Source: Diplolepis rosae
Taxonomy: Eukaryota > Arthropoda > Insecta > Hymenoptera > Diplolepididae
Length of the DNA stretch: 64,000 nt
Direction: 5' to 3'
Assembly: GCA_030998225.1 (NCBI GenBank)
Contig: JAPYXD010000738.1
Span: 1,426,001 to 1,490,000 of the forward strand
Of the stretch, positions 25,241 to 57,923 are shown piece by piece. The translations under genes were made by a program, and so were the position numbers. The notes beneath the pieces were generated by a model that ran no database searches, was not told where the DNA came from, and worked only from the letters and a program-made list of their open reading frames with translations. Numbering within the stretch: the first letter of the stretch is position 1; each line of letters begins with the position of its first letter.

Positions 25241-25279
25241 CTTCCCCCTCGATAGACCTTTTTATCTTGAAAGGCGCTG

Positions 25280-28772: not shown

Positions 28773-29006
28773 TATGCCGGCCCCCTTGAACGGTCACGTT
28801 CAATAAACATAGAATTTAATGAGTTTATGATAATTATAATAACAAGTATCCTAGTCCGACAAGCATGCGAGAAGGCGATAGTTAATAATTGTAAGGTTGA
28901 TATTTGCATATAATCCACACGATGAAACGGAAATGGCCGACTTAGGCGACATAAGATTCCTGCGTCGGACATTAGTTAACTTGCGTACATGCATACAGAC
29001 TTAAAT

Positions 29007-32000: not shown

Positions 32001-34418
32001 ACCGTCAAAGACGACTCGCAATTGTGTCGTTGAACTGGACCCTTTTATGACAGCGTGATGAGGCAAATAATAGCCTTCACGTGGAGAAGCTGATTTTACC
32101 TCAGTCATATAGCCATTAGTTAGATAAGACCTAAGATTTTCGATATAAGGCGCCCTTATTCCCGGTTTTTTAATAAAAGAGCGCTCGAGTGCATGTAATC
32201 GTTTTATGGCACTTGAATACGTTTCTCCTAAGTCGTCTACGTTTTCTCTAAAGGGAAGTTTGACACAGTATTGTCCATTTCCTGGATCTCGGAAAGTATG
32301 CTCCTGATAGTGAGCTTCGCATTCGCTTTCTTCGATAGAAAGAACTTTCTTTTCTGGACAGTTTTCGATTGTCCAGAATTTTTCTAATTGTTCGTTTAAC
32401 GTTGCTGTAATAAAATGACACGATACTTGATTCCGAGGATTAGGTAGAATTATATTACCAGCCACGATCCACCCGAAAACAGTATTTTGAAAAACGATAT
32501 CTTGACCAGGAATCTTGAATTGTCCCTGTTTCAAGAGCTGAAGAAAATATTCGGCACCGATAATACCATCAACCGGACCCGGTGAATAAAACGTTGGATC
32601 TGCTAGTCTTATATTCCGCGGAATATTCAGATTCGATTTATCTATCGGGCGTGATGGGAGAAGTTCGTTCACTTCGTTTACAATGAGAAATTCGAGGTTC
32701 AAAGAGAAATTGTTCAGACGAGATTTTACGGTAGTGGTGGCAGAATATTTTATGCACGAGGATAAGGAGTTTACGGCTCCAAGAGGAACGTTAATTTCAT
32801 GTTTTTGCAGCTTTAATTTTGATGCCATTCGTTCGGTTAAAATATGAGGCTGGGAACATGAATCAAGTAAAAATCTACACTCGTGGAAAGCTCCCTTTAG
32901 ATCCATTATATGAACGATCGCGGTCGTTATTAGTTTTTCAGTGTGAGTGTTATTTTTTAATGGAAACGTATTCACATATGTCGATTGATTGGTATTTTCC
33001 TTTTCAAAATGCAACAAGGAATGATGCTTTTTATTGCAAGACTTACAATGTGTCGATTTGCAGTCCTCAATTCGGTGGTTAGATTTCAAACAATTGAAAC
33101 ATAAATTCGCTTTTTTGACGATATTTATTCGCTCGTTAACAGTCGCGTTGGTGAGTTGTTCACAATATTGCGTAAAGTGAGAGCCTTTACACAAATGACA
33201 AAAGGCTTTAAATTGAGTCGCGTATGAAGAATTGGAAGGAATATTTTTAGTAAGCGCGTACGTTTGACGATTTGACGAATTTTGACTCGCAAAGGCTTTG
33301 GAATTATTTTTCGCGAAATTGTCAGACCTTTCGTTTTTATTAGTTCTGTGCGTTTCCAGCACCTTTCTACGCGAGTGTAGGAAATCTAGCAATTTCGTCA
33401 TTGATGGAGAAGAATCGTTTTGTGTTTGTTCCTTCCATTTTATTCGCGTTTGATGATCAAGTTTTGATAACACAAGATAAATAGGAAATGCCTCTAAGAA
33501 AGGTTTGTTGAGAGCTTGAAGAGCACGGTAATGTTTCGTAGCGTTATCTAGAATATCTCCAAGAGCAGAAGCTGATGCATTTTGACACGGTGTCAACTCA
33601 AAAAGTGCCCGTATACGATTATTGATTATTGCGGCGGGATCATCATAGTATCTTTCTAATATACCCCAAGCTACTTGATAGTTCGCCGAAGTAGTCTCTA
33701 GAGATTCTATTTTTTCTGCTGCCTTCCCTACTAAACACGATCGTAAGTACATTAATTTTTCTGCGTCCGAAAACTTGGTACTATTGTGTACAGCCGATTT
33801 GAAGGTATCACTAAACCCAGGCCATTTTCCGTAAGAGCCCTCGAATTTCGGTAAATCGGCTTTCGGTATCCTATAATTCGATTCACTTCCAATAAAACCA
33901 ACATCTATAAGAGGCGCTGTTGGGAAGATTGTTCTGTTATTCGTATTTGAGAGGCTGTTTGTATTTTCATCGATATTCTGAACCGCGTTCGCAATGTTCG
34001 AACTACCCACGTTTGCGATATCCGAAATACCCGCGTTTACAATATTCGAAGTACCCGCGATAGTGACCGTAGATGAATCGATTGAATTAGCAGATTGCGC
34101 GGACATAAGTGCTGCATGATCATTTTTAATGTACGCCTTTGACCTTGCGAGTACTGAACACAGTTCTTCCTCGAATGTCTCTCTCTCGTTGGTTTCATTT
34201 TCAAACCTTTCGTCTGTAACTAAAGATTCTATTTCTGACTGAATTATTTCAAATTTTTCGCGTATTCCATCAAGATTTTCGTATCTTTCGATTAATTCAC
34301 CTCTAAATTGCTCCTCAGCAGGCCTATTCATATAATTTTTAAAGCTGGTTATTCTACCTTTCAACGGAGCACGCTTTCGGACGAGTTGTTTGAAACGAGC
34401 TACAGAAGTCTCATCCAT
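29007..34418 (-). CDS. BEL/Pao gag-pol polyprotein, intact ORF
   Basis: 1803 residues, the usual size for this family. In order: coiled Glu-rich N-terminus (about 40-100); short repeats SNIVNAGISDIANVGSSNIA (125-144); gag core of DUF1759 type (about 190-360); CCHC knuckles C407-C410-H414-C419 and C440-C443-H448-C453, and a third Cys pair at 458/461; aspartic protease at LLDSCSQ (517-523), where the usual Asp-Ser-Gly is Asp-Ser-Cys; reverse transcriptase (about 760-960) with FDGSS, then TADIEKMY, then YVDD (923-926); RNase H with GFSDAS (Asp1099); integrase with Cys pair 1465/1468, Asp1500, Asp1566 and Glu1620; and a DUF5641-like C-terminal module (about 1695-1795). Gag would assemble particles, protease process them, RT/RNase H copy the RNA and integrase insert the cDNA. 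The protease change may disable it. Confidence 0.95.
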   Translation of the reverse strand: MDETSVARFKQLVRKRAPLKGRITSFKNYMNRPAEEQFRGELIERYENLDGIREKFEIIQSEIESLVTDERFENETNERETFEEELCSVLARSKAYIKNDHAALMSAQSANSIDSSTVTIAGTSNIVNAGISDIANVGSSNIANAVQNIDENTNSLSNTNNRTIFPTAPLIDVGFIGSESNYRIPKADLPKFEGSYGKWPGFSDTFKSAVHNSTKFSDAEKLMYLRSCLVGKAAEKIESLETTSANYQVAWGILERYYDDPAAIINNRIRALFELTPCQNASASALGDILDNATKHYRALQALNKPFLEAFPIYLVLSKLDHQTRIKWKEQTQNDSSPSMTKLLDFLHSRRKVLETHRTNKNERSDNFAKNNSKAFASQNSSNRQTYALTKNIPSNSSYATQFKAFCHLCKGSHFTQYCEQLTNATVNERINIVKKANLCFNCLKSNHRIEDCKSTHCKSCNKKHHSLLHFEKENTNQSTYVNTFPLKNNTHTEKLITTAIVHIMDLKGAFHECRFLLDSCSQPHILTERMASKLKLQKHEINVPLGAVNSLSSCIKYSATTTVKSRLNNFSLNLEFLIVNEVNELLPSRPIDKSNLNIPRNIRLADPTFYSPGPVDGIIGAEYFLQLLKQGQFKIPGQDIVFQNTVFGWIVAGNIILPNPRNQVSCHFITATLNEQLEKFWTIENCPEKKVLSIEESECEAHYQEHTFRDPGNGQYCVKLPFRENVDDLGETYSSAIKRLHALERSFIKKPGIRAPYIENLRSYLTNGYMTEVKSASPREGYYLPHHAVIKGSSSTTQLRVVFDGSSKSATGLSLNDVLMVGPTIQNDLFSLLVRFRSHAYVLTADIEKMYLQTKIHPEDRRYQRILWREDPSEPVKTFELNTATFGTSAAPFLAIRSLHQLANDEAKSYPKAAAILKSDFYVDDMLTGASTREEAEQLRDELLEITRKGGLNLRKWASNDLHLIETLPSRSSESFFQLNLETETKTLGIHWNPKRDSIAFTVFPNNENKTITKRVILSQIAQLFDPLGLMGPVTVHGKILMQKLWLLELGWDTAVPTEIYNAWREYRNQLPLLSTLQFNRKIIVDNYTNLQLHGFSDASERAYGACIYVRSSSSDGKSETHLVCSKSRVAPLKTISLPRLELSAALLLAQLHKATSQALKHLKFEKTILWSDSTITLHWINTPLNSLKTFVRNRVSDIIEITSTIKNCEWRHVRSESNPADLISRGLLPGEFSTATLWQNGPQWISDCVNSWPKSVLEFTELPEIKRATTSFALKENEISNSNLECQVAKTNVVQRNKKTAELDIDILTIFSSSDELKRLIACCKRVTQNVKLGQMVKGELTISELRNGMTKIVKIIQKEGFSNELKSLKYKRQVEGKLANLAPFIDSEGVLRVGGRLDNSNLLFSQKHPALLPQNHHFTKILIREEHVNIMHGGTQATLNALHRNFWIVNGRSTVKNVIHKCILCARARPTIPQYVMGNLPKKRLSLDRPFLVTGIDYCGPFFVKEKRHRNRNKIKIYVAIFVCFATKAVHIELVSDLTTEAFLASLRRFFSRRGLSSDIYSDNGTNFVGARNEIRDIQELLSSDIHNKSVEKTLAKKHIASHVIPPRSPHFGGLWEAAVRSFKHHFSRVVGNTLFTYENLPTLTTEIEAILNSRPLTPISSDPNDLSALTPGHFLIGDSFNNMPERNLVDIPSGRLSSWKHVQQMRQHFWNRWYKEYLNELNVRKKWHSGKINDIKIGDLVTLREDNLPPMQWSLGRITAVHPGSDNIIRVVSVKTHRGEYKRSVKKISPLPIQASGTV

Positions 34419-35024
34419 CTTAGAATTTTGTTTAAATTAACGCACTTCACGACTGAGATAGAATAATAATCGATAAGAGTATGAAAGAGGACTAATAACT
34501 TTAAGGAAATATCGGGGATTCAGATAAAAACATGACAGACTTACTTTATCGTTGACTGGAGCAGATGGTGCGGATGATCTTCTCGTTCAGAGTATGTCCA
34601 GCTGATCTCTAAGTTGTGGTCGGTCGATTGTAAATCTGCAAGTGCAATCTGTATTAGCACTTGCAGATTTACAGAGTCTCGTTTTTCGCTATAAAACACA
34701 ATTTATACTGCGCACAGGTTTGTTGCATAAGTCACAACATACACTTTAGAATATCACTTGAGCTTTCGTTTTCATAATAGTCACAGTTTCGTTTACTTCC
34801 ACGATTTTGTTAAAGCTTCGTTATTGCTGTGGAGTCGTTTCGATATATTCGCTACTCGATCTACGAATAAAGTTTTATTTCATAATGTTCACTGACGATT
34901 TTCGTTCGCTTACACAGAGCTCACACGCGTTTACGTTCACGTTCGTTTTTCGTTGATCACCAGGAAAATTTTTCAATGAAGAGCTGCCCTCAGGTGGTTG
35001 TTTCATGTGGATATGATTTTTATC
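34419..35024 (-). other. BEL/Pao 5' leader
   Basis: Untranslated leader of about 600 bases between primer-binding site and gag-pol ATG. It contains a perfect stem-loop at 34630-34672. The small ORF on this strand (34875-35078) is not supported. Confidence 0.8.
34630..34672 (-). promoter_or_regulatory. Perfect 16-bp stem-loop in the BEL leader
   Basis: GTAAATCTGCAAGTGC (34630-34645) and GCACTTGCAGATTTAC (34657-34672) are exact complements around an 11-base loop. It lies in the transcribed leader downstream of the primer-binding site, the usual place for dimerisation or packaging signals. The role is inference. Confidence 0.6.
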
Positions 35025-35044
35025 AAATCCGGCTCGAAGGACCA
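35025..35044 (-). promoter_or_regulatory. Primer-binding site (tRNA-Tyr type)
   Basis: One base inside the 5' LTR the minus strand reads TGGTCCTTCGAGCCGGAT, the complement of the 3' end of insect tRNA-Tyr (ending ...CCGGCTCGAAGGA plus CCA), as I recall that tRNA. First-strand DNA synthesis would start here. Confidence 0.8.
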
Positions 35045-35045
35045 A

Positions 35046-35629
35046 TGTTACGTTGCGGATTGAATTGTTGAAACACAAGTTTTCGTTATTTGGTTCCTTT
35101 CAATCACTCCTTGGAATTAAGGTGAAAATTCAAGGATCTCGATTTCAGTTGCGATAAAATGAGTCGAATTAAGTTAAAACTGGGTTTATTTTACATGACT
35201 TAAATTAAGAGTTGTACAAAACTGAGATTAACTGGTTGAGAAGTGTTTTCTATATCGCATTGTAATTGTGACTGTTGTCTTGGGTCAGTGTCACGACAGA
35301 GATAGGAAAAACTAAGGGAGAGGAGGGAATGGTTTACAAATTTGAGTGGTGGGGTAGAGATTCGATGCAATGTAAGTTGGCTCGTTCGATGATTCACAAA
35401 GGTTGGGGAAAATCCGGGGAAAAACCCAAATTGGTTCGTAAACACAGAAGGCCGATCTCCAGACAGGGAGGTGCGCTAGTACAATAGGTTAGGTAGACAA
35501 GGCCTTCAAAGAGACAGTCTATTGTGAAGTGACATTGTAAAGTTTATAGTAATTTGGATAACAGATTGTAGAAAGCGAAATTATCACATAAACCTAAAAG
35601 TATAAAAATTATTTCATTACGCTTCAACA
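35046..35629 (-). repeat. BEL/Pao 5' LTR
   Basis: 584 bp with TG...CA ends. On the minus strand it begins TGTTGAAGCG, with TATA-like sequence (TTTATACTTTTAG) about 25 bases in. It is near-identical to the 3' LTR. Confidence 0.93.
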
Positions 35630-35775
35630 CGTGTAGTGGAAAATTCTTACAATATTAAAAAACATCTTTATAGCTTTTCTTAAGAATAAAATACTGTTTA
35701 TAAAATCACATACTAATTCTTGGCAAAAGCACTGTACCGTAGCAAAAAAAGTCACCAGCACCATTTCAGGCTCAT

Positions 35776-35979
35776 TTACAGAGCATCTAAAATAAATGGA
35801 ATTAAATTTCTGGGTGTTCTCATTTCAAAGTATTCAGGAGCAATAATAGTCTTCCAAAATTTTACTGCCTTTTGTACCATATCTTCAACAAAATCGGTGT
35901 CAAAATAAACCCTTTCTACATGAATTCCTTTGGTTGTCCAAATGACGTAATCACACCACAAACGTTCTGTTACAGCCAT
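35776..35979 (-). CDS. YqaJ-like nuclease, last exon (ISL2EU accessory gene)
   Basis: A minus-strand acceptor TTTCTTACAG precedes AVTERLWCDYVIWTTKG, then HVERVYFDTDF, then KFWKTIIAPEYF, and a stop at 35776-35778. AVT.R.WCD..++T..G...ER++FD..F is the conserved C-terminal region of YqaJ-type (lambda exonuclease-like) domains in insect transposon proteins; Asp and Glu in this stretch belong to the nuclease fold. ISL2EU elements are known to carry a YqaJ gene beside the THAP transposase, which fits the convergent gene at 25280-27516. Upstream exons with the rest of the active site are not seen before the gypsy relic at 36479, so the gene is truncated. Confidence 0.65.
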   Translation of the reverse strand: MAVTERLWCDYVIWTTKGIHVERVYFDTDFVEDMVQKAVKFWKTIIAPEYFEMRTPRNLIPFILDAL

Positions 35980-36478
35980 CTGTAAGAAAAATAATACGGT
36001 ATGATGATATTTATGATAACTTTCGTCAATTAAGTTAAAAAATTGTCACTTTTTTCATCACCATAAACTTTTTTTGACTGATTATAGTTTTCACAAAATC
36101 TATCTTTTTGGAAGTAACTACTTATCACCACTGCAGTGCAAGTTAAATTGTATGACTATTACAAGATTTAATTGTTGTCACGACAGGCTTACCTCGTTGT
36201 AAAAAAAGGAAAGTTATACTTGATTTGTCTAGCGCAACAGCGAACGCTGCGGTTGGAGTAACCAAAGGAGCTTGGCAGTGCATATAAAGAAAATGTATGT
36301 GTACTAACCGTTGGGGTACGTATAAAGCTGATTCTAATCATCAACTTTGATCACAACAACCGAATACACAAAAAAATCCACATTACTGTCAAGATATCTA
36401 TAAAAGTAGAAGCTTCACTGAACTTTTTTGGTCAAGACAACTACTGTACAAAAAAATGTATGTGCTATGTGCACTGGA
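35980..36478. other. No clear gene; possible YqaJ intron/exon remnant
   Basis: On the minus strand, ACAACGAG|GTAAGC at about 36190-36205 is a good donor and could end an upstream YqaJ exon, but the preceding sequence has no recognisable domain. The rest is AT-rich. Confidence 0.35.
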
Positions 36479-37520
36479 ACCAAAGCCGAAAAACAGAAAA
36501 ATATTAAACAATTTTTAGCCTTAGCAGGATATTATCGACGATTTATTGATGGATTTTCAAAAATGGCAAGTCCTTTAAATTAACTTCTGAAAAAGGGTAT
36601 ACCTCTGAATTGGCCAGAAAAACAACAAGCAGATTTCGATATTTTAAAAGCAAAATTATATGAAGAACCACTTTTACAACGACCTGATTTTTCTCAACCT
36701 TTTATACTCACAACAGATGCCTCAGGATTTGCAATAGGAGGTATATTATCACAAGGTAAAATAGGTAAAGATAAACCAATAGGATATGCTTCACGTAGTC
36801 TAAGTGAAACTGAGAAAAAATATGATAAGTATGAGAAAGAAGCCCTTGCTATAATATTTTGTGTAACTCATTTTCGTCCTTATTCGTATGGGAGAAAATT
36901 TACTTTAGTGACTGATCACAAACCTCTAGTTTAGTTTCAAAATTCTAAAGACCCTTGTTCACGAGTTTCACGTTGGAGATTAAAATTCGCAGAATATGAT
37001 TTTGATGTAATTTACAAAGCAGGAAAAATGAATTTAAATGCAGACGCTCTCTCAAGAAACCCTATTGACGATAACAAAGAGAAATCAAGATATGTACAAG
37101 TTGATGACAATGATACTTTTATTACTTTTCAAGAAAAAACGTTTTCCAAGAAAACTTTTACAAGAAATAAACAAGAAAACTCTAAAAATGAGGTAAGACC
37201 TTTAAAACGAAAAAACTTGAATCCAGGAATGGTACCAGACGACGTAGATCATTTTAGTGAAATTCCAGAAGCCCAAATATTAAATATTGACACAAAAATT
37301 CCAGAATTTTTACAAGAATTCCTTAGTGAAGTATCATTTAGTGAGATTGGTACGAATATTTTAAGATACACAAATTTATTCAAAAATATGGCTTCAAGAC
37401 TTATTTTTATGACAATATTTTTATTAAGTCCAATGTTTTCCAAAAACACGAAAATTTATCAAGGAAAACTATTACTAAAAGAGCTCAAAAGAGAATACAA
37501 AAAGAAAAAGCAAAAAATTT
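36479..37520 (+). pseudogene. gypsy pol: RT connection and RNase H, into accessory region
   Basis: It begins KNIKQFLALAGYYRRFIDGF, the end of the gypsy RT thumb/connection. RNase H follows, with Asp in ILTTDASGF (about 36715), Glu in YEKEALAIIF (about 36833) and Asp in LVTDHKPLV (about 36910), then GKMNLNADALSRNP. Premature stops occur at 36581-36583 and 36932-36934 (after PLV, where Trp is usual). From about 37080 to 37522 the frame stays open through a Lys/Asn/Ser-rich sequence with no recognised fold. Confidence 0.85.
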
Positions 37521-38280
37521 GAATCGAAATGAAACTCAAGAAAAATTAGACGAGAATTTTGCTTCTAAACTTCTTGTGAAAAAACCACGAGGTAGGCCAA
37601 GAAAAAATCTACTTACAAATTAAAAAAATATTCCCTCAAACAAAAAGAAAGAGAGGTAGACCAATAAACAAATATATGAAGATTAATTACCAGAATGAAA
37701 TATGCAAAACGGAAGCCGAACAAAAGTAGAATCAGATTCCGACTCTGATCTTGTATATTTAGATTATTTGAAACAAACTAAAGCAAGAATCACAATATAG
37801 AAGAATGCCAAGAAGCCAAAAAATATTAATGAATTTGAAAGCGAAGAAAGTGAGGAATTATTTTTCGACCTCAGAAGATGAAATCAATGACATTGAAACC
37901 TCACACAAAGGAAATGATGAAGAAAATTATGAAGAAAATTTGGAAGAGAATTTTGAAGATGATCTTGAAGAAAATTTCAAAAAGAATTTTGAACAGAATT
38001 TTGAAGGAAATTTCGCAGAAATGTTTGAAGAAAACCAAGAAGAAAACTTGGAAGACAAATTTTATGAGCCTTATTTTAAAGAAAATTTGAAACTAAACTG
38101 AAGATCTCAAATAAATTGTGGAAAAAACGATAATGATCATGATGATTATAATCGTCCACCCCCAGAACGCCCTCCTATAAACTCAAAAACAGAAAAAATT
38201 ATAACGAAGAAAGATATAGTTGAATGTCGCGATCAATTAACTGAGCGAAAAGATAATTATGCATATTTTGTTACAACAAA
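37521..38280 (+). pseudogene. gypsy accessory insert: AT-hooks and ENFE acidic repeats
   Basis: Between RNase H and integrase, in shifted frames, are two AT-hook-like motifs, KKPRGRPRKN (about 37580-37607) and KKRGRPIN (about 37641-37670), then a 12-bp tandem repeat encoding about 12 units of E-N-(F/L)-E (37917-38060), then IVECRDQLTERKDNYAYFVT (about 38215-38275). AT-hooks bind AT-rich DNA, and acidic repeats often recruit chromatin proteins. The last segment resembles the start of an extra domain I remember in some insect gypsy pols. Stops and frameshifts are frequent. Confidence 0.55.
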
Positions 38281-38292
38281 TGGAACTCCTCC

Positions 38293-38771
38293 AAGGCAGA
38301 GATTTTTTAAGTAATTTATTGAAAAGATTGGCAAAACGTTTTAGAATTAAACAATTTCGTACCACAGCTTTTCACCCTCAATCAGACGAATAATTGGAAC
38401 CTTCACACCATGTTTCAGGAGAATATCTCAAGCAATTTGTTGCGAGAAATACAGAATGGGATGATTGGCTTGAACTCGCAATGTTCTCATATAATACTAG
38501 TGCACATGATGGCACAAAATGCACACCCTATGAATTAGTTTTTAGTAGACTAGCTCGTGAACCTTCCAGTGAATCTTTATCACAACAAGATAAATTACAA
38601 ACATATGATGATAATTTACGTAATTTTGTAACACAACTACACGAAATGCGATCACAAGCAAGAGAGAATCTTATTTCAGAGAAAGAAAAATCGAAAATAT
38701 ATTATGATAAAAAAATAAATCCTTTAGAAGTGAAAATTGGCGATAACGTATTTTTATTCAAAGGAGGTAAA
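38293..38771 (+). pseudogene. gypsy integrase, C-terminal half (broken)
   Basis: It starts inside the catalytic core at QGRDFLSNLLKRLAKRF, then TTAFHPQS, a TAA at 38391-38393, and LE...SHH, which keeps the catalytic Glu region; then WDDWLELAMFSYNT, TPYELVF and KIGDNVFLFKGGK. The HHCC finger and first catalytic Asp are deleted. A LINE insertion begins at 38772; the last module continues at 40872. Confidence 0.8.
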
Positions 38772-40871
38772 TTTTTTTTTTTGTTGAACAGGAAAAATGG
38801 CAAAATCTTTTATAGACGTTGTACAGGACTCTCCTAGGACGGGTCTAGGCATACCTGTTAAAACCAAAAAAATCCCCTCTCTCGAACCAATACACCACCC
38901 GCGGAACCGCCTTTCGGCTTTAAACTTCGCGGGTGGTTGGTTCCATTAAAGTCGCGTACGACTCTTCCGTCATCCGTTCGCTCGGAACTTCCATCCGCGG
39001 CCACACGCCCACTAAGCAAACCGACTAGTCGCGCCACCCAGGGGAGAAACGAACAGATTCCTCCCCCGAACGACGCGGATAGCCAAGTCTACCCGAGACG
39101 CAGGACCGCGGGTGCAGGCCCCGATGCGATTTCTACTGGTCCTCCCCGTTATTTCGCTCTCGACGCCCATCAAGCTCTCTCGTCTTCATCACAAGTGTGA
39201 CGAATGACTCGGTGAGCGTCCAGAACCGTTCAGACTGGAGCATGAGAGGGACCATCGTGTCAGCAGTAAGTTCGGAACCCACCGCCTGGACAAGGACCTC
39301 CCTAGCCACACCCTATTTTGCGCAGACGAAGAGTGCGTGCTCTGCGTTATCCACCGGGAAATCGCAGTAGCAATACGTCTCCTCGTCTCTCTTCTTAAAG
39401 AGCCTCAGGTACGCGTTAAAACAGCCATGGCCCGAGAGCGCTTGCGCCAAGTAAAAGCCGACTTCCCCGTGCTTTCTGTTCAGCCAGGTGGCGAGCTCCG
39501 GGATCAGGCGGTAGGTCCATCTCCCTGTCTGCTCACCATGCCTGTTTTCCACTCGACTTCATGGTCTCCGAGAACGATCCTGGGGTATTGGTTGGATCTC
39601 CTGTCCGTAACGAGCAAAGCTTCGGTTTTCTCAAGGTCCACTTTAAGGCCTCTGCTATCCAACCAGCGCTTTGCTCGCCACAGACTTTCATTGATCCTCA
39701 GCTCTAGGATTCTGACGTCGTCAGCGGCGCACACGACAAGTTCGTCATAGACATCTATCATTCGCAACAGGTAGTCTGGAACCTTTTTCCGAATCATCGC
39801 CTCGATGCAGATGTCCCATCTCGCGGTATTGAACGCATTGCGTATGTCAATGCTAATCAACGCACAGAATCCCTTACGCTTACCAGTTCCTTTTCTTGCA
39901 TTTGCGGCGATGTTAACCACAGCTTGGATGGCGTCCACAGTGGACCTGCCTTTCCTGAATCAGAACTGGTTTTCCAAGAGCCCGATCTCACCGACCAAGA
40001 GAGCCTGAAGCCGTTGTAAAATCAACTCCTCCAGAAGCTTCCCCATCGTATCCAATAAGCATATGGGTCTATACGACAAGGCAACCCCTAGAGGTTTGTT
40101 GCCCTTCCTCACCAGGACCACCCTCTGCTTCTTCCAATCTGCGAAGAACCTCCCCTCCCGAAGACAGGAGTTAAAGGCTTCTAAGAGGTTCTCCGGCTAT
40201 GCCCCGATCACCTCTTTGAGGATCTTGTTCGGCACCCCGTCGATACCCGGCGCTGTATTTGCCTTAAGCCTTCCGCCCGCTGTCTTTAGTTCTTCGAGAG
40301 TGAAGAGTTCTTCGCGCCGGACCACGCAGGAACTTCGGTCCTGTCTTTGGAACGGCTCCACGTGTGGAAACAAGCCTTGCACAACGTACTTGACTCGATC
40401 GATATTGTTTGGACTGTTCTTGGTCACAGACTGCGGAAACTTTGCAGTGTCCCCCAGGAGATTCCATACACCAATACGCTCTTAGCCTCTTTCAAGAGGG
40501 AGACCGTCTATAGGTTCTCCTCTCACATTCGAAGGACACATATCACAGTCATGCGGCGCTGACATTCATTTAGTTCACTCATTCCTCACAAGCACTCTCA
40601 GCGCCGCTACCTGGGGCATACATCCTTCTCCATGCATGGGTATGGACGCGTTTATAGCGTCCCCCACTCTCAACCTGGGATAGACCCGTTTATAGGGCAC
40701 CCTTCACGCAATGGGAAGATGCCCGTCTATAGAGACCCCTGCATTTGTTCACCGATTCATCGGGATACTACAACCTCCATGACCCGAGGGCCGTCTGCTA
40801 AGCCTCCCCACCCGTCCTTTTTTGGCATAGCCAAGAGAAGGACTTCGTCAAGGTACCAGTCCGAGGGGTGG
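38772..40871 (-). mobile_element. R1-like LINE copy B, with poly(A) and 11-bp TSD
   Basis: Inserted in the gypsy integrase. AAGGAGGTAAA is duplicated at 38761-38771 and 40872-40882. The plus-strand T run at 38772-38783 is the poly(A) tail, so the 3' end is on the left. The 3' UTR (about 38785-39300) and 5' UTR (about 40430-40870, with repeated TATARACGGG-type motifs) are both present. ORF1 and the endonuclease are absent and the RT is gapped, so the copy is internally deleted rather than 5'-truncated. Confidence 0.85.
39300..40430 (-). pseudogene. LINE copy B reverse transcriptase remnant
   Basis: Minus-strand frames, in order: VKYVVQGLFP, then FTLEELKTAGGRLKANTAPG, then GIDGVPNKILKE (RT motif 0/1); LVRKGNKPLG and SYRPICLLDTMGKLLEELI; RKGRSTVDAIQAV; LISIDIRNAFNTARW (RT motif A Asp). 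A deletion follows, then CAADDVRILELR (motif C region) and GLKVDLEKTEALLVTDR. The end is WTYRLIPELATWLNRKHGE, then YLAQALSGHGCFNAYLRLF, characteristic of the R1-clade C-terminus. At least two frameshifts and a UAG are present. Confidence 0.85.
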
Positions 40872-41023
40872 AAGGAGGTAAAATTAAAAAACAAGATAAC
40901 TATTATACAGGGCCTTATGAAATATTGGAATTGTTAGGAAAAGGAAATGTCAAAATAAGCTATAAAGGCAAACCTACTGTAGTTCACATAAATAGACTAA
41001 AACGCTCACATAGACAAGTTTAA
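40872..41023 (+). pseudogene. gypsy integrase C-terminal module (GPY/F-like)
   Basis: After the LINE the frame resumes with KIKKQDNYYTGPYEILELLG, then VKISYKGK, then VVHINRLKRSHRQV and a stop at 41021-41023. GPY is the signature of the chromodomain-like integrase C-terminal module. The open frame is intact here. Confidence 0.85.
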
Positions 41024-41096
41024 AAGTAAATAAATAAAAATAAATAAATGAACAAAAAACAAAATATCTTGACATTAATTATGAAAAAAATATATA

Positions 41097-42102
41097 TGGG
41101 TCATTTCATGGAAGATCTACAGTCAACTTTTTTTTTTCGACGAAATATTTTTTTTACCTTCTTCGAAAATAATTTACACGTTTTTTTTTTCAATGTGATA
41201 CTTGAAAATTTCGAGATATAATTTTTTTAAGTTTGACACTCGGGAAAAACTTTTTTTTTCTAACAGCTCACTATAAAAGCAGTTTTGAATATAAAATGTA
41301 ACCCTTACACTTGAAATGCGCTAAAGAGTACAAGCTTTCAAAAAAGTTATAGCACACATTTCGTTGTTTTTCTTGTAATAGCAACATAGTACATTTTTAT
41401 AAACAATTGAATTTTTTTCAAATTTGGAAGTAATTTTTTTCCGATTTTTTGTTTGTAAATTTTTTTGAAGTTTTTTCAATATGCAGGCAAAATTTTGGAA
41501 TGCAAAAATGAAAACTGTAGGTGCAATTAATTTATAAAATCTGTCCCGCGCGTTGCAACAAGCGAGCTCGCACGCTGTAACTACGCTTAAGCTTGTTTAG
41601 GCATGCTCTGACTCGAAGCACGTGTGGCTGTGAACCGCTGCAATGGGCGGGACAGATTTTATAAATTAATTACACCTATAGTTTTCAGTTTTCTATTCCA
41701 AAATTTTGCCATGCATATTGAAAAAACTTCAACAAAAATTTAGAAACAAAAAAATCGGAAAAAATTAGTTCCACATTAAAAAAAATTCAATTTTTTATAA
41801 AAATGTACTACATTGTTATTACACAAAAACAACGAAATGTGTGCTATAACTTTTTTGAAAGCTTGTACTCTTTAGCGCATTTCAAGTGCAAGGGTTACAT
41901 TTTATATTCAAAACTGCTTTTATAGTGAGCTGTTAGAAAAAAAAAGTTTTTCCCGAGTGTCAAACTTAAAAAAATTATATCTCGAAATTTTCAAGTATCA
42001 CATTGAAAAAAAACGTGTCGATTATTTTCGAAGTAAGAAGGCAAAAAAAAATATTTCTCCGAAAAAAAAATTTTGACTATAAGTCTCCCATGAAATGACC
42101 CA
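41097..42102. repeat. 1-kb palindromic (foldback) element
   Basis: It starts TGGGTCATTTCATGG and ends CCATGAAATGACCCA. The arms are ~450 bp and almost exact inverted copies (both contain GCACACATTTCGTTGTTTTT and GAGTACAAGCTTTC in opposite orientation). A 105-bp GC-richer spacer lies at about 41549-41652. TATA flanks both sides, consistent with TA or TATA target duplication. It is non-coding and located just after the gypsy pol stop. Confidence 0.88.
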
Positions 42103-42243
42103 TATACATATAAAATTTAAACAAGATATAGAAATTTTATTTTGTCAATGAATGGTAAAAATAAAAAAATAAAAATTGATATAAAAATATATACAACAAA
42201 AAAACATCATGAAATTTAGACATAACACATTATTCCAGATATA
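42103..42243 (+). promoter_or_regulatory. Leader with candidate splice acceptor before the third-ORF cluster
   Basis: CACATTATTCCAG ends at about 42238, five bases before the ATG at 42244. Errantiviruses express env from a spliced mRNA, so an acceptor here would suit a retroelement third ORF. This is inference. Confidence 0.4.
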
Positions 42244-43198
42244 ATGGATCAATTTCATCGCAAACGCATAGATGATCTCATTGAAATAGTTCCCTGTTTT
42301 ATCGACATGGTAGCTCTCTGGCCGTATTTAATTCAAACTGGAAGTTTTAAGCAAGATGACTGTAATATTTCCACATGGAGCAGAAACCTAAATAATCGAA
42401 GTACAATAAAGGATATTTTTTCAGCAATGAAAACAATATAAATCCTTATAAAATAAAAAGAAATAATATCTCTACTACATCGCCCTTTTCGGGAAAAAGC
42501 TTTAAGAAATGTTTTAAATGCGGATATAGATCCGCCAATCAGTACAATAAATTCTAATACAAATATTTCATATCGATGCAGTGAATCATGTGCAATGGAG
42601 CATTACTATGGTGAGCCTACCCACGTGCAAAGTTACAAAAAAAAGATATGTAGAACAGACTCTATGGGACTTTTAAACCACGAGGAAATTTTAAGAAATT
42701 TTACGATAAAATATCGATTACCGTTACCACAATACATCGTTTATCCTGATCCAAATTCAAAAACCAAATCATTTTTTCTTGCTCCAGTTAATACAAACGA
42801 TCATTTTGTTGTACAAGCGGGTCCTACAAGCGAGTTAGCCGAAAATAGAGCTGCTTTGAAATTACTACAACTATAAATAAGATCTTATGATCTTTGCGAT
42901 GAGGATTTTTACAATAATACCTGTAAAAAAACAAGAAAGACAAAAGATCAAAGTGTTCAAACTGATCCAAGACCGAAATTAGTATCATGGAAAAATTCAT
43001 GTAGATATTGTAACACTCGTATGCATGCTACAAAAGAGTTCCGTAGACGGAATGTTTTTAGAGCTGATAAATCAACACAATTTCCCCCTCCGATTCCGCC
43101 TCGAAACTCCTCAACATTTAGTAGTCTCTTTTCCCCTTTTTTCCAAAAAACTTCTAGACCTAAATTCAACCATATGTACCCTAGCGGACCCGGCTGAG
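42244..43198 (+). pseudogene. CARD-like / dsRNA-binding / Cys-motif protein, broken by stops
   Basis: One reading frame runs 318 codons with stops at 42439, 42454 and 42874. Residues 1-65 (RIDDLIEIVPCFIDMVALWP, then LIQTGSFKQDD, then TIKDIFSAMKT) plus the following ISLLH...ALRNVLN have the six-helix hydrophobic pattern of a CARD death fold. Next comes SYRCSESCAMEHYYG. Then LNHEEILRNFTIKYRLPLPQ, with FFLAPV and ELAENRAALKLLQL (about 42690-42873), matches a double-stranded-RNA-binding domain. After the third stop are a Cys pair with a nearby His (CRYCNTRMHAT) and a Pro-rich tail. The protein may have bound dsRNA and a death-fold partner. It is probably inactive here. Confidence 0.5.
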
Positions 43199-43647
43199 AG
43201 AACGGTCATAGAATACTCTGACCGTTCTATGACCTCGTATTATTACGGCTAAGAACGGTAAAAAATACATTAAAAGCATTGCAATTATGATTCTGTGGCG
43301 AAATTTGGATTAGAAGGTGAAGCAATAAATACTATTATCTTATTTTTCAGCGATAAAAACTAGGAAAACATCATGTACCTGTCATTGAAGGCAGTGAAGT
43401 GGTTCACCATTTGCGGAATGTCTCCACCCATAATAAAACTTCATGGTGGAGACGTTCCGCCAATTGTAACAGTATTGTAATATAAGAATTGCTTTTTTAA
43501 CGGAGAAATAGAATACCCTTCAATAATGTAGAACTTCTATTAGAATCAAATTTTGGTACATCTGCACGATTTAAATGGATAAAGTATAAAAATTATATAA
43601 TCAAGCGTATACTTGAGTAGAATTAGATCCTTTTCTTTTTTAAATTT
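43199..43647 (+). pseudogene. Interrupted coding remnants between cluster ORFs
   Basis: Short open stretches with coding character: KLGKHHVPVIEG (about 43357-43392) and NNVELLLESNFGTSARFKWI (about 43520-43580). A splice-acceptor-like TTATTTTTCAG ends at 43350. Two small hairpins occur: GGTCATAGAA/TTCTATGACC at 43206-43235 and CGGAATGTCTCCACC/GGTGGAGACGTTCCG at about 43414-43459. No family assigned. Confidence 0.35.
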
Positions 43648-44010
43648 ATGGAATGCTTCCGACTGCGGCAGAACCGATCCACATATGGACACTTAATAAA
43701 TAGTTTTTGTTTCGATTTAGAAGCATCAACCTTATTCATTTATTGCAGTCAAGAAACAAAAAAGAAATTTTGCCAATTTTGTTTCGAAAAATTACCAATA
43801 ATAGAACAAAATAAATATGAATTCTGTACCTCATGGCACTCAGTTTGTAAAATACAATGCATTAATATGAATTGTAACGGTTGTAGAGAAGCATTAATAA
43901 CACCACGCTGTAGGGCAACGGACTGTAAAGGTTGGATTGAGCAATTCTTAAGAAATAAAATTCAACTTCAGGTAGGAAAAGAAGTTATAGTCGAAAATGT
44001 TTCCCGATAA
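43648..44010 (+). CDS. Cys-rich small protein, function unknown
   Basis: 120 codons from ATG 43648. Cysteines come in pairs and singles (KKFCQFCFEKL; CKIQC; MNCNGCREALITPRCRATDC), a pattern of two or more zinc-binding modules. There is no signal peptide or membrane segment. It lies in the same orientation as its neighbours and is intact. I do not recognise the family. A short exon of a larger spliced gene is an alternative. Confidence 0.45.
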   Translation: MECFRLRQNRSTYGHLINSFCFDLEASTLFIYCSQETKKKFCQFCFEKLPIIEQNKYEFCTSWHSVCKIQCINMNCNGCREALITPRCRATDCKGWIEQFLRNKIQLQVGKEVIVENVSR

Positions 44011-44130
44011 AATATTAGTGATTGTAAACTCATAAATAAAATTTCGAACATGTCTAAAAAATTCTTTTTAAGCAAAACACTGTTAGAATATAATTAGTAT
44101 TTTAAAGCCCAATATCGAATTTGTTTATAG

Positions 44131-44496
44131 AAAAATGCTGCCGCAAGATTTCGAATCCATTTAAACCGAAAACCCAAAAAACGACGAACAGTCTGCCAAC
44201 CGTATATCGATCAAATAATTATAAAACATTTTTGTTGCTACTCTTCAGAAAACGAAATATTTCAGAATACTTAAGATTATAAATTCATATGTAAAGAATG
44301 TTACAGATTTAAAATTAACTTTTTTGAATCAGAAATATCTGTACCTTACTTTAACCGCTATATTGTGACGACGGATCTTAATGAATCAAAATGTTCTGTC
44401 TGCAAAGAGCAAATTTTTTTCGTACGTTTTAGAGCAGACCAGTGTTTTCTTTGCACTGAATATCTCTTTGAGTTAGCAAACGCGGAAAACGAATAA
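44131..44496 (+). pseudogene. Second Cys-rich ORF, with one in-frame stop
   Basis: Open from 44131 (just after a TTGTTTATAG acceptor-like site) to TAA 44494-44496, broken by TAA 44272-44274. Motifs: basic start (HLNRKPKKRRTVC), KHFCCYSS, FICKECYRF, then KCSVCKEQIFFVRFRADQCF and a final Cys (a CxxC...CxxC zinc-ribbon/RING-like arrangement), ending in an acidic tail. It resembles the preceding Cys-rich ORF in style, not in alignable sequence. Confidence 0.4.
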
Positions 44497-44593
44497 TTTA
44501 TGATCCATATACATAATTCTTAATGATATTAATAACTAATTTCCATTAGATCAATTCAGTCACCAACAACTCAAATAGATAATTCTTTTGCAG

Positions 44594-45229
44594 ATAAGGA
44601 CAATGGCAATGCAAGAAAAAGATTTGACAAAGAGTAGCGCAGTACAAATACTTAATGAAATAAGTATTCAATACGATTTTGCAGAGTAGGTATACATTGT
44701 AACATATTTTCAGTTGCCCAAAGTTTCAATTGCCCATAAAATCACCAGAAGTCACTATATTTGAAAAGCAGTGTTAGACGAAGATTATGAAAGGAATGTG
44801 TTGGCAAAAATTGCGAGGATTGCAAGATGCAGGATTGCTGTACATTTCCCTTAAGCGCTCTCTACCGCCTATATTTTATATATACTCGCAATTTTTGCCA
44901 ACCCATTCCTTTCATAATCTTCGTCTAACACTGCTTTTCAAATGTACTGACTTTTGGTGATTTTATGGGCAATTGAAACTTTGGGCAACTAAAACTATGG
45001 TACAATGTATACCTACCATTTTACAATACCAAAGTACAAAATAAAATCGCTTGGAATACACCAGGAACTACCGCCATTCGAGGCAACTTGCGAAATTTTT
45101 AAAGATAATTTAATCTATGCTTGTATTGGGGAACCTGCATCCCAAAAGAAAGTAACAAAACAAAACGCAGCAGCTGAAGTCATTTTTATGACATCCAAAA
45201 AATTATTGATATTGGAATGTATCAAATAG
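44594..45229 (+). pseudogene. dsRNA-binding domain gene split by a MITE
   Basis: After an acceptor-like TTCTTTTGCAG (ends 44593), the frame gives SSAVQILNEISIQYDF, the first helix of a dsRBD, and stops at 44687-44689 at the edge of a foldback element. Beyond the element, 45017-45229 gives IPKYKIKSLGIHQELPPFEA, then CEIFKDNLIYACIGE, then SQKKVTKQNAAAEVIF, that is the beta strands and second helix with the conserved K(K)xAKxxAA-type motif. Together the two parts make one complete dsRBD fold interrupted by the insertion. Confidence 0.6.
44686..45016. repeat. 331-bp foldback MITE inside the dsRBD
   Basis: The ends are a perfect 16-bp inverted repeat (GTAGGTATACATTGTA and complement). The inner arms also pair (GTTGCCCAAAGTTTCAATTG, then GTGTTAGACGAAGATTATG and complements) around a short centre at about 44818-44878. 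No coding capacity. Confidence 0.8.
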
Positions 45230-45403
45230 TAAAATGCAAAAAAAATACGACTTGTAAAACAAACGCCGAAATCAATGTTATATTTACCATTCACATACTG
45301 TTACTATATAAAAAAAAAATTTTAATGTATTTCTTCAAACATGAACTAATGTATTCTTCTTCCGAAGATTCATTCGCGGTAGCCTTGGCCCCTTGCTCGA
45401 ACT
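45230..45403. other. Spacer between cluster and polypurine tract
   Basis: AT-rich; an ORF at 45217-45405 has no domain. Confidence 0.4.
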
Positions 45404-45414
45404 GAGGGGGGAGC

Positions 45415-46183
45415 TATCACGTCCCACGACGTATTTGATTGTATTAAATACACACAGACTGGATTGAGTTAGAAATCTATGAGAAAATCGATAAATGGAA
45501 ATAAGGAGTAGGGGAAGTAGGGAGCAGTATTGGGTCCCTTCTCCTATACGAAAATATGACTACGTCACGATTTACGCTGACCGTCAATTTGTATGTAAAA
45601 ATATAAAAGAGGGTCACACCAAGAGCAAGCTGGCAGTTAATTCTTCGTCTGGTTCGTCACTTAAATTTTCCTTCGGAATTATCACCGGTCTCGCGGCAAT
45701 AGTTCAGTATGGTTTTCAAATTAAACTCCAAAAATCTCTTAGTTTGAGACTAATAAAATTCGACCGGGACAATTTGAAATCTAAGTTCGAGAGTCGTAAA
45801 AGTCATCGTGGACTCGTATAGATCTTTGTAAAGATCTTCGAACAGTGTCATAAATTAGGATCACCGCCTTTACGGAATATACCTGTGCGGCCTATATCTC
45901 CGTCTCTCCTACACACCTTGACTACATCTGTGGGGATCCTGCGTACCACGTATTCACCGCCGTGTGGATCCCCCCCCCCCTCCAACGCACCAACCAGCCT
46001 CTGCCTACATTTATGTATAAATTTTGTTAAATGTGTATGGTGACCTTGTATTAATTTGTATTATTTAATAATCGTTGTGTCTTTCATTGACATATCCTTA
46101 TCCCTAAGCGAGGATCATTCGATCCTAACTTAAAACGAGAAACCTTTGATCAAAGTAAGTATTTACTCAGTTGTGACGTAACA
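45415..46183 (+). repeat. Candidate gypsy 3' LTR with promoter and poly(A) signal
   Basis: It immediately follows GAGGGGGGAG (45404-45413). It begins TATCACGTCCC and ends GTGACGTAACA, imperfect inverted ends of TGTYACGT type. Inside are TATAAAAG (45602-45609), a likely initiator near 45636 (GGCAGTT) and AATAAA at 45752-45757, in promoter/polyadenylation order. A run of ten or more C occurs at about 45970-45980. No partner LTR lies in the window, so limits are tentative. Confidence 0.5.
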
Positions 46184-49922: not shown

Positions 49923-50234
49923 GGTGAGGGGGCATGTTGGTCTGTCGGCGGTTGCTAATCGCAGCCGCGCTCGTGGCCTTTTCCGAAGATCCCGCTTCGT
50001 CCGATACTTTTTCAAAAATCTCCGAACTTCCTGAATTTTCCGGTTATTCTGGTTTTCGCGTCTACGCTCGTTCAGCAAATTCTTCATCTGTTACCTTCAC
50101 ATCAACAGCATCCAGCACTGGCTGCAGATTATCAGAGTTCCTCTGCAATACTGGTTACTGTATATCGCAGGACAAGTATTGCGATGGTGAAAATGACTGT
50201 GGTGACAAATCTGACGAACCGAAATACTGCACTC
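49923..50234 (+). CDS. Exon of a secreted/receptor protein with one LDL-receptor class A module
   Basis: Bounded by acceptor TTTGTTTCAG (ends 49922) and donor CACTC|GTGAGT (50234/50235). The ATG at 49934 has an in-frame TGA upstream (49925-49927), supporting it as the start. Residues 4-16 (CRRLLIAAALVAF) fit a signal peptide. Residues 64-99 form a complete LDLa repeat with six Cys (CRLSEFLC, then CISQDKYC, then DGENDCGDKSDE, then C), including the acidic calcium-binding residues. The exon ends in phase 1. The continuing exons were not found. This is the most convincing host gene piece. LDLa modules mediate calcium-dependent protein or lipoprotein binding outside the cell. Confidence 0.8.
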
Positions 50235-50939
50235 GTGAGTACCCACAAAATGAATATATTACTTCATGCAGCGCAAAATTTTCAATTTATCAAGCTTCAT
50301 TTATATTTCTTAAATATGATTGAAATATATGTATAACATAATATACAGAGATTATTGGGAACAAATTGTTTGAAAAGAAAAACTAAGTTCTATTTCATAT
50401 ATCTGGTCAAGCAACCTCGGAGTATTTAATAAACTTATTGCATGACTTGTGGTTCTTCAGACATTTGTCCAATAGAGAGTATTGATAAATCGATCATCAA
50501 ATGCCCATGAATAAGAACTTTATGCACACTCGTTGTCATGTAAAACCATGAGTACAGGTCGACGAATTTTCTGGAAATTTCTAATGCGAATACTCAAAGT
50601 TTTTCATCGTCTATTTAAAAACCATAAGAAATCATTTGCAATATATCAGGAAACTTTTCGGTCGAATCTCCAACAATTTCCGTAATTGACGCAGAAATGT
50701 TTAAATTTTCGAAAAATCATAGAGCAGTATTACCATTGTTCGTGCTACCATAACTATGTTCAGGTAAGGCAATAATAAGCCCTGATTGTTTTCAAAACTG
50801 TATTTGTATACTCTGTTTTCTTAAATCGACTTCTTCTTCATCAGTTTTGCGAATTTGCTATTCTTTCTTACAATTAGATACGATACATATATACAGCATT
50901 GGAAACACCGTATCCACGCTTGAGCGAAGAAGTTCCAAA
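50235..50939. other. Presumed intron of the LDLa gene; nothing recognised
   Basis: AT-rich without coding signal on either strand. Confidence 0.4.
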
Positions 50940-51560: not shown

Positions 51561-52218
51561 TGGATCTCTCCACCCCTTCTTTCACTAAACACTTGTGAGT
51601 GATGGAGATGCCACTAACAAACAAAAAGACAAAAGACAATAAAGCGCGTCTGTTAACTTCTTTTGATTGAAAATTATGAAAAAAATTCAAAAACTTATCG
51701 AAAATTACAGATAAGTGTAAAATGTTTTGCAAAATTTTCAGTCAATCGAAGTTGACAGACGTGATTTATCATTTTCTGTTGTATGTTCTAAATTTCCAGA
51801 AAAACATTTTGTAAAATAAAAAAGTTTTCTCACATGAACTTTTACAGGGATTTTTTCAAGTGATCTAAATGATCCATGGCATTAATACTTTTTCTTGCTT
51901 TAATCGAAAAATTTAGTCAATAAATGTGTTTTGTGCTGAATGTGGTCCTGTTTGTTGCTTAAAACTGATTTTTTTGCAGAAAATGTGTGTAAAATGAAGT
52001 TTAATTTCATCAAATAATATCTAGTCATTGTTTTAACAAATAATAATAACAGTATTAAATTAATATCAGGTGAGCAAATAATTTTCCGCCTTTTTTTATC
52101 AAAAAATGGGCTTTTCTTGTGAAAGAACGGAACCTTATATTTCATTCAAAGTATCGTCGATCGTATTGTTCTTCTTGCGTTTTACACGAATCTTCATCCA
52201 ATAATATCAATATCAATA
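51561..52218. other. No supported gene
   Basis: AT-rich unique sequence left of TcMar copy 2. Confidence 0.5.
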
Positions 52219-52220
52219 TA

Positions 52221-52977
52221 AAGGGTTTCCCAATAAGGGTGATATGTTTTGAAATTGAAAAAAAACACTGAATATTCATTCGGAATTGATCGAAATCTTT
52301 TTTATTATATAGGATATTCTATGCCATTTATGATTTAAACAATATATCGGCCAAATGTCCCCCGAGACTTGAGCCAAAAATGCGCCTCATCAGAAAAGAT
52401 GATTTTTTGATGAAAATTGGGATCATTTTCAATTGATTCCAGAGCCCAATCCGCGAACTCCCGACGCAAACGATGGTCATTAGGCTTCAGTTCTTGGGCC
52501 AGAATCATCTTATAGGGATGCAGACCAAGATCCAATCGCAAAATACGCCAGGTAGTCATCCTGGACAGGCCCAATTCCTGAGATCGGCGTGGCACGGACA
52601 ATTCACGGTTTTCCTCGATACTGGCCTGTACGGCGGCTATATTCTGTGTAGAACGTGCGGTACGCATACGATTTTTAGGCTTAGTATCCAATAGAGTAAA
52701 TTCACTCTCCAACTTATCGATTATTCGACGAATTGAGAGCGCGGATGGAGCAGAATGACGACCATATTTTGCACGATATGCTCTTTGAACACCGACAAAA
52801 CTTCTCGAATTTTGATAAAATAATTGGACAATTTCCAAACGTTGTGGAAGCGTGAAACTACTCATGATTAAATGGCAAACCTTACTGATGACAACTGACA
52901 GCAGACGTCAAAAATTTCAGTTCAAATGAGCCCGATAGGGACATTCAAAATCATATCACCCCTTTTGGGAAACCCTT
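52221..52977 (-). mobile_element. 757-bp Tc1/mariner-superfamily deletion derivative, copy 2
   Basis: Same ends (AAGGGTTTCCCAATA and complement), same length and TA target duplications (52219-52220, 52978-52979) as the copy at 4225-4981, inserted in unrelated DNA. Confidence 0.9.
52335..52865 (-). pseudogene. Truncated transposase, copy 2
   Basis: 176 codons with the same start (MSSFTLPQRLEIV) and the same premature end just after FSDEAHFWL as 4337-4867. The shared breakpoint shows both derive from one deleted ancestor. Confidence 0.88.
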
Positions 52978-52979
52978 TA

Positions 52980-57504: not shown

Positions 57505-57923
57505 CTAAAATAATGATATTTTGGTATTATTCTAATCATACTTTGCAATTACTTCCTTTCCTCTTGGTCGGAACATTTTTCAATTGAGCATTTCCTTTAA
57601 GTTCGTCGTCGGTAGATTCGCTTGCAGACAGTAGAACTCTATCAGGGGGTTGTCTCGTTCGGTGGGTTACAATTTTATGGTCGAGTTTCTGTTCGGTATC
57701 TATTATTACGAAAAAAAGTGAATGTTTTTTTTTTCAATGACACCCGATGATAGCGCAATTAATATTCAACAACACTTCTTATCGCTAAACTAAGTGGATC
57801 ATATGATCAAAATAAATTTAAGTTTTCCTCGAGATTTTTCCTCAATAATGAACACTTCTGCCACTAACCTCAATTAGTTTAGATTAATTAAATCTAAAAA
57901 ATTAAATCTCAATTTCTCAAAAT
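57505..57923. other. No supported gene
   Basis: AT-rich flank of the MITE and the minisatellite. Confidence 0.4.

Follow-up and report, generated by a model that had tools for sequence, protein, structure and literature searches.

The question raised by this stretch of Diplolepis rosae DNA (64,000 nucleotides, positions 1,426,001 to 1,490,000 of contig JAPYXD010000738.1; hereafter the window) is what a run of small open reading frames (ORFs) at 42244-45226 represents, lying as it does between the pol gene of a Ty3/gypsy retroelement and a long terminal repeat (LTR). In an earlier sequence-only reading, a caspase recruitment domain (CARD)-like domain, two double-stranded RNA-binding domains (dsRBDs) and several Cys-rich modules were recognized there and taken for an accessory suite of the element in place of env, with a captured host or DNA-virus gene cluster beside a relic as the alternative. 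Copies elsewhere in the same genome were compared (757.7 Mb searched). The window cluster proves to be what is left, after decay and internal deletion, of one member of a giant Ty3/gypsy provirus family. Its relatives carry gag, pol and, from pol to the 3' LTR, two glycoproteins together with six or more small accessory proteins. The pol stop, the purine tract with LTR and the shared + strand were found where that reading had placed them (Table 1).

Gene order after pol was assembled from pieces of better-preserved copies: CARD, a Monjiviricetes-type glycoprotein, a two-dsRBD protein, a protein with one dsRBD and a CCHC zinc knuckle (dsRBD + CCHC), a Baculo_F env, two Cys-rich proteins, a second dsRBD + CCHC protein and the 3' LTR. 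Twelve copies around the dsRBD were fetched (picked from 150, mostly near-intact, not random). Integrase, CARD, glycoprotein, two-dsRBD, dsRBD + CCHC and env stood in order on one strand in 11/12; among these 11, env spanned at least 80% of the query in nine, 47% in L015 and 28% in L017, and the first Cys-rich ORF was visible within the fetched stretch in 9/12. The twelfth copy, L019 (C386:996300-1006100), is a relic without the first glycoprotein. The ORFs thus belong to the element, as the earlier reading had it, and the findings named there as refuting did not appear; no systematic search for related gypsy copies without them was made. Pieces of other copies supplied the 5' LTR, a 628-aa gag with zinc knuckles and pol, and, at the 3' end, the two Cys-rich ORFs, the second dsRBD + CCHC ORF and the LTR.

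The 5' and 3' LTR pieces were compared in four copies, two of which gave full LTRs and ends, with paired TG..CA LTRs, a primer binding site, a polypurine tract (PPT) and a target-site duplication (TSD) within the 4-6 bp of Metaviridae. One LTR-bounded span was 17,205 bp (LTRs 99.4% identical, 2 mismatches/854 columns, TSD ATTT), the other 17,621 bp (97.9% identical, 17 mismatches/851 columns, TSD AATA); both are known from LTR ends and from CARD and dsRBD at the expected places, not from a full read-through. For the other two copies the 3' piece starts inside the LTR; overlapping parts were 98.6-100% identical, and ends and TSD fall outside the piece. By reading, the primer binding site is TGGTGCATCGGCCGGG, which we take to be the complement of the tRNA-Gly 3' end. 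The Metaviridae pol order of protease, reverse transcriptase, RNase H and integrase was found (RVT_1 123 bits, RNaseH 134 bits, rve, H2C2), the protease match being weak (14.9 bits, below cut-off). We hold this anatomy of the provirus family to be almost certain. The RNase H-integrase linker of pol (e.g. L028:5930-7147) also contains AT-hook motifs (RGRPRK, 18.7 bits, above cut-off) and a variable acidic 12-nt repeat, perhaps of relevance to targeting.

The first glycoprotein, encoded by the ORF after CARD, matched Monjiviricetes_fusion over residues 31-682 (813 bits), and the second matched Baculo_F (PF12259, 82.2 bits), an F-type env after pol as in errantiviruses. They are different protein families, and presumably also differ in fusion class. 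Because the better copies hold both, env is not replaced in this lineage, and the idea of a cluster in place of env had to be dropped. The window copy lacks both, the first through a 2.9-kb deletion and the second through a deletion at which a short repeat now lies.

We consider it probable that the window cluster is the wreck of a recently active, complex-retrovirus-like gypsy with spliced 3' genes, a decoy CARD, dsRNA-shielding dsRBD proteins and two entry modes. Spliced subgenomic RNAs would serve to express the 3' genes. The stand-alone CARD, a relative of initiator-caspase CARDs and probably captured from a spliced host mRNA, would be a decoy: by blocking the CARD-CARD recruitment of a Dronc-type caspase to an Apaf-1/Dark-type platform, it would keep infected cells alive. 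Element dsRNA would be bound by the dsRBD proteins and thereby shielded from Dicer-type RNA interference (RNAi) or related sensing, the CCHC knuckles would tether these proteins to element RNA or particles, and the two glycoproteins would provide two modes of cell entry.

For the RNA-binding proteins, the dsRBD profile (PF00035, dsrm; cut-off 23 bits) was exceeded by the two-dsRBD ORF (44.2 and 41.7 bits in two copies) and by the last dsRBD + CCHC ORF (31.6, 30.3 and 27.2 bits in three copies, with a CCHC knuckle in two). The middle dsRBD + CCHC ORF scored 18.2-20.2 bits, below cut-off, and its knuckle was identified by eye. The two dsRBDs first recognized in the window are therefore real though decayed (42457-42873 scores 15 bits, 44993-45226 scores 21.8), and their number falls short of the four in better copies. 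A clear KKxAK-type motif (QKKVAKQNAA, by reading) was present in the last dsRBD only. The knuckles are of the retroviral CX2CX4HX4C type, with profile support for the second dsRBD + CCHC protein only. The two dsRBD + CCHC ORFs align with each other (E 5e-7, no shuffle control), and the first and second Cys-rich proteins (CysR1 and CysR2) align with a score of 26.5 (best of 30 column shuffles, 17.8); both pairs therefore look like old duplications within the element. The Cys-rich modules noticed in the window are relics of this related pair, and the three window pieces gave nothing better than E 0.055 against Pfam. The predicted structure of CysR1 was of no use (pLDDT 43.8).

That the dsRBD proteins are suppressors of RNAi is offered tentatively. 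They may instead be RNA-handling factors (export, packaging or reverse-transcription chaperones) for a long, multiply spliced 17-kb RNA, with the CARD as a separate decoy, an explanation that has some weight and that we would still not expect to prevail. The pairing of a dsRBD with a retroviral-type knuckle in two proteins, the degenerate appearance of several dsRBDs and the packaging needs of a large genome speak for it. Against it, four dsRBDs exceed any obvious packaging need, and at E<=0.01 the two-dsRBD protein matched a single PDB entry, Loquacious (E 0.0017), an RNAi cofactor, though this is just the nearest dsRBD of solved structure.

The CARD-like domain of the window (42226-42438) gave no Pfam match by itself. 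CARD (PF00619, cut-off 23.9 bits) was matched in the related element families C, D and E (30.5, 30.1 and 29.3 bits), which bears out the original assignment, and subfamily A, close to the window copy, scored 19.2 bits, below cut-off. The predicted fold class is the six-helix death fold. Element CARDs resemble those of initiator caspases (best, Dronc, E 0.0012), and other families are 46-88% identical to subfamily A. Iridovirus CARD-only proteins (PMC4457926) are likewise stand-alone viral CARDs of ~91-93 aa and were also structural neighbours; in the part of that paper available to us, they lower caspase-8 and -9 activity. They differ in belonging to a large DNA virus and in that their anti-apoptotic action was tested. 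By this analogy, the element CARD may act as a decoy at the Dark/Dronc step, for and against which we see equal chances.

A host-like CARD gene was found at C395:2883302-2883693 (L042, L044). The gene model, built from sequence alone, has two exons (exon 1 of 138 nt, an 89-nt GT..AG phase-0 intron, then exon 2 to the stop) and predicts a 101-residue CARD-only protein (27.8 bits). This protein is 48-56% identical to five element CARDs (E 1e-31 to 2e-38, gapless at the exon junction). Searched alone, its best match was caspase-9 (E 0.062), and the gene may itself regulate apoptosis. Another host-like CARD gene, L035, shows distant similarity (15% identity). Because the element CARD lacks the intron of this similar host gene, its capture from a spliced host mRNA is suggested. 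The reverse, that the host domesticated an element CARD and gained the intron later, perhaps as an anti-element factor, seems unlikely to us. In its favour, a CARD tree (FastTree, Dronc and CED-3 as outgroup) placed the host gene with weak support (0.385), leaving the direction open, and element families diverge from one another about as much as from the host gene. It is opposed by the canonical intron and by the 7 kb around the host gene, where CARD alone of 11 element proteins matches. Intron gain is also rarer than intron loss via mRNA capture.

The ratio of nonsynonymous to synonymous substitution rates (dN/dS) was calculated between subfamilies A and B, using one copy pair per gene, picked for open frames. 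Values of 0.08-0.33 were obtained for gag, integrase, CARD, both glycoproteins, the dsRBD ORFs and CysR1, with dS >1 and hence rough ratios for env and CysR1. The protease-reverse transcriptase stretch gave 0.68 [0.37-1.33], and CysR2 was saturated. The ratio of nonsynonymous to synonymous differences (pN/pS) for CARD was 0.25-0.45 in 10/10 pairs of five families. These values show purifying selection on most 3' ORFs as estimated from such pairs. dS differed along the element (0.06-0.21 for integrase, protease-reverse transcriptase, CARD and the first glycoprotein; 0.27 for the two-dsRBD ORF; 0.5 for gag; 0.6-2.1 further 3'), and the two subfamilies therefore look like recombinants.

Splice-acceptor-like sites before several ORFs had been reported for the window, and this pattern extends to the family. 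In both subfamilies, each of the eight 3' ORFs has its ATG preceded, at a distance of 1-16 nt, by an acceptor-like AG. With a simple score of our own design and start codons of our own reading, set against 509 background ATGs, 14/16 sites ranked in the top 7% and the remaining two at 17% and 19%; for gag the count was 0/2. Strong acceptor-like sites preceded env in 2/2 copies scored. As acceptor-like sites precede the 3' ORFs, subgenomic splicing of these ORFs is suggested. In the window, an acceptor-like ttattccag lies 5 nt upstream of the CARD ATG, and a GTAAGT donor-like motif lies within the 3' LTR (both by reading). LTR elements are known to capture ORFs and other DNA (PMC6431247, as far as that source was available), so the extra ORFs could be passenger host sequence without function for the element. 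The purifying selection, the acceptor-like sites and the same gene order in a family 47% (CARD) and 27% (dsRBD) identical, found at one locus, make this very improbable.

The abundance of the cluster was estimated from two first-look searches. The dsRBD ORF 42457-42873 gave 964 candidates (150 scored, 150/150 matching), and the subfamily A CARD ORF gave 1,172 (150 scored and matching, 60 of them 100% identical over 99 residues). For at least 87/150 listed dsRBD places, the CARD list contained a same-strand entry 2.5-6.7 kb upstream, the spacing being 2.5-3.3 kb in 83 of those 87; among the matches listed, a CARD on the opposite strand or downstream within 8 kb was found in none. One CARD search gave 61 places, of which 11 were fetched. 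Protein searches matched 49/55, 53/55 and 21/23 candidates, all of them ENA proteins (15/49 were read, 20/53 entered alignment A1, 15/21 entered A2 and 5/53 entered the CARD tree). Viral contigs scanned with the dsRBD ORF gave 41 pattern stretches and with CARD alignment A4 gave 73, none confirmed in either case. Within these chosen or partly listed samples, no free-standing host gene cluster without pol and LTR appeared; the two-exon CARD gene alone occurs free of them, and CARD is one component that has an intron-bearing host counterpart. A host or DNA-virus cluster lying by chance beside a gypsy relic, as the window copy alone with its inserts and deletions might look, is hardly credible given the linkage in 11/12 loci and in the listed dsRBD copies and the paired LTRs that enclose the cluster.

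The window copy itself extends from 36486, inside pol, to the LTR end. Similarity to other copies starts at 36486, and no 5' LTR, gag, protease or reverse transcriptase of the family was found in 33001-36485, so gag, protease and reverse transcriptase are gone. The pol remnant matched RT_RNaseH_2 (117.6 bits), is 88-92% identical in nucleotides to three other copies, and its linker contains an AT-hook-like RGRPRK motif and acidic 12-nt repeats. The pol stop codon is at 41021-41023. The insert in the integrase end resembles a long interspersed nuclear element (LINE), its reverse transcriptase-like frames being recognized by eye without a profile, and it is missing from the fetched copies that span that point. 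The palindromic repeat, which resembles a miniature inverted-repeat transposable element (MITE), has a similar counterpart at another point of L019 and none in the other 11 fetched copies.

The window CARD piece is 85-89% identical in nucleotides, up to 42436, to fuller copies that carry the CARD. The 2.9-kb deletion took the CARD C-terminus, the first glycoprotein and the two-dsRBD protein; its origin as a retro-copied spliced RNA was ruled out, there being no GT/AG at the break. As L019 has the same junction and its palindromic repeat elsewhere, it seems that the deleted form was itself copied or duplicated. In the first dsRBD + CCHC relic, the final Cys of the knuckle (identified by eye) is altered. 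Part of the short repeat (43218-43428) is 86% identical to L021:5323-5534, which is outside the element. CysR1 has 135-138 aa frames in other copies. The hairpin said to divide the last dsRBD does so, and was missing from 4/4 copies compared. The 3' LTR is 85-91% identical, in two pieces, to that of another copy.

Table 1. Parts of the decayed gypsy provirus in the window (positions of the window; dot, no strand given)
Feature	Position	Strand	Remarks
gypsy pol remnant, 5' truncated	36486-38771	+	RNase H, linker, part of integrase
LINE-like (non-LTR) insert in integrase end	~38772-40871	-	fetched copies pass directly from 38771 to 40872
Integrase C-terminus and pol stop	40872-41023	+	PF22938 (Integrase_p58_C) 26.8 bits, cut-off 27
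Palindromic repeat (MITE-like) between pol and CARD	41056-42143	.	inverted repeats I1, I3-I6
CARD ORF, N-terminal 65 codons only	42244-42438	+	ATG 42244; cut by deletion
Junction of 2.9-kb deletion	42431-42436	+	common to relic L019; break without GT/AG
dsRBD + CCHC-knuckle protein relic	42595-43178	+	dsRBD ~42697-42870, stop 42874
Short interspersed repeat	43180-43463 (about)	.	occupies site of ~2 kb Baculo_F env in other copies
Cys-rich protein 1 relic	43627-44010	+	89-91% nt identity to L025/L026
Cys-rich protein 2 relic, frame broken	44135-44496	+	start assigned by eye; comparison with copies
Second dsRBD + CCHC protein relic	44603-45226	+	split by hairpin insertion
Hairpin repeat inside last dsRBD	44686-45016	.	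I2, 135-nt arms, 94% complementary
Purine-rich tract (PPT)	45402-45414	+	by reading; same place in L025, L029, L030
3' LTR	45415-46183	+	family ends TGTCACG...GTAACA; window copy TATCACG...

Other features were recorded in the window. An apparently intact BEL/Pao element lies on the minus strand at 28188-35629 (LTR stretches 97-99% identical; 1809-aa frame with Peptidase_A17, DUF1759, DUF5641 and RVT_1). A transposase-like fragment that contains a DUF4817 helix-turn-helix is present twice in inverted orientation (98%), at 4220-4984 and 52218-52982, with nearly the same 190-aa frame in each. A tandem duplication of ~2.9 kb, made up of 18683-21090 and 21582-23997, shows 100% identity over the three reported stretches of 300 nt and is either a recent event or an assembly duplicate. 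At 25271-27516 a THAP-like frame (21.7 bits, below cut-off) is followed by a DDE_Tnp_4 transposase frame (134 bits). A frame at 49928-50323 contains an LDL-receptor class A domain (45 bits) and is perhaps a host gene exon, and an 81-bp unit is repeated four times in tandem at 57902-58225 (74-80% identical to the first).

The usual description of insect-type gypsy proviruses is that of gag-pol-env elements, repressed by piRNAs and, to our knowledge, without accessory genes. The element resembles errantiviruses and other env-carrying insect gypsy elements (Metaviridae) in its gag-pol-env order, Baculo_F env, TG..CA LTRs, 4-bp TSD and acceptor-like site before env. Unlike their single env ORF, ~8 kb follow pol here (estimated from offsets in separate copies), which add a second glycoprotein, a CARD, four dsRBDs and Cys-rich proteins to give 17 kb in total. 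The accessory protein 4a of MERS-CoV, from the partial account at hand, is similar as a small dsRNA-binding protein and differs in belonging to an RNA virus of vertebrates. We know of no zinc knuckle in 4a.

Taken one by one, the main features of the provirus have precedents: LTR elements with chuvirus-type glycoproteins are known, as are gypsy elements with an F-type env and elements with extra ORFs downstream of pol. The sources cited here were available in part, and the comparisons are limited to those parts. Anakin, a BEL/Pao element with a chuvirus glycoprotein (PMC10084718, PMC12440569, PMC7642597), shares the capture of a negative-strand-virus-type fusion glycoprotein by an LTR element, and differs in being BEL, with no second env or accessory suite mentioned for it. 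When BEL-type pol domains (Peptidase_A17, DUF1759, DUF5641) were looked for in the gypsy pol, no A17 or DUF5641 was found; its matches were RVT_1, RNaseH, rve, H2C2 and Integrase_p58_C. Jingchuvirales glycoprotein endogenous viral elements flanked by Gypsy occur in Hymenoptera and Coleoptera, with no clear evidence of capture by Gypsy in the part of PMC10084718 consulted. They share the broad glycoprotein class adjoining Gypsy, whereas the gene described here sits within gypsy proviruses bounded by LTRs. Type III fusion glycoproteins, a class other than F, are likewise carried by some gypsy elements (PMC13172572), for which no accessory genes or two envelopes are mentioned in the portion seen. 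Burro of planarians (PMC6431247), likewise a giant gypsy, combines a mononegavirus-like env with a domain related to cell death (BCL-2); it differs in its domains, in an env in the gag-pol frame and in phylum, according to the excerpts at hand. Troyka (PMC12440569) was rejected as a relative, having CG..CG termini, a 3-bp TSD and no env as described there. No report of a gypsy with a CARD, dsRBDs or two env classes was found among partly listed matches, which did not cover Chary and Hayashi 2025, and absence from print is not thereby established.

The finding bears on the gap left by PMC10084718, in which, so far as seen, Gypsy lies beside Jingchuvirales glycoproteins and capture is unclear. 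The lineage, with its four dsRBDs, two envelopes and a CARD that resembles a decoy, would make it testable how gypsy elements gain genes and whether endogenous retroviruses counter host cell death and RNAi with proteins of their own; its candidate places number roughly a thousand in a single genome (964 and 1,172, with 150 scored each). With an intron in the host CARD gene and none in the proviral version, this would be a rare instance of a host gene captured by gypsy. The general proposal is that these gypsy proviruses are complex endogenous retroviruses of an invertebrate, in which two unrelated glycoproteins would serve entry and several genes together would oppose host defence: a CARD captured from a spliced host mRNA would block apoptosome assembly, dsRBD/zinc-knuckle proteins would blunt RNAi, and the genes would be expressed by alternative splicing, like those of complex retroviruses in vertebrates. 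We give this proposal even odds. The analysis suggests that some invertebrate endogenous retroviruses carry their own kit against host defences.

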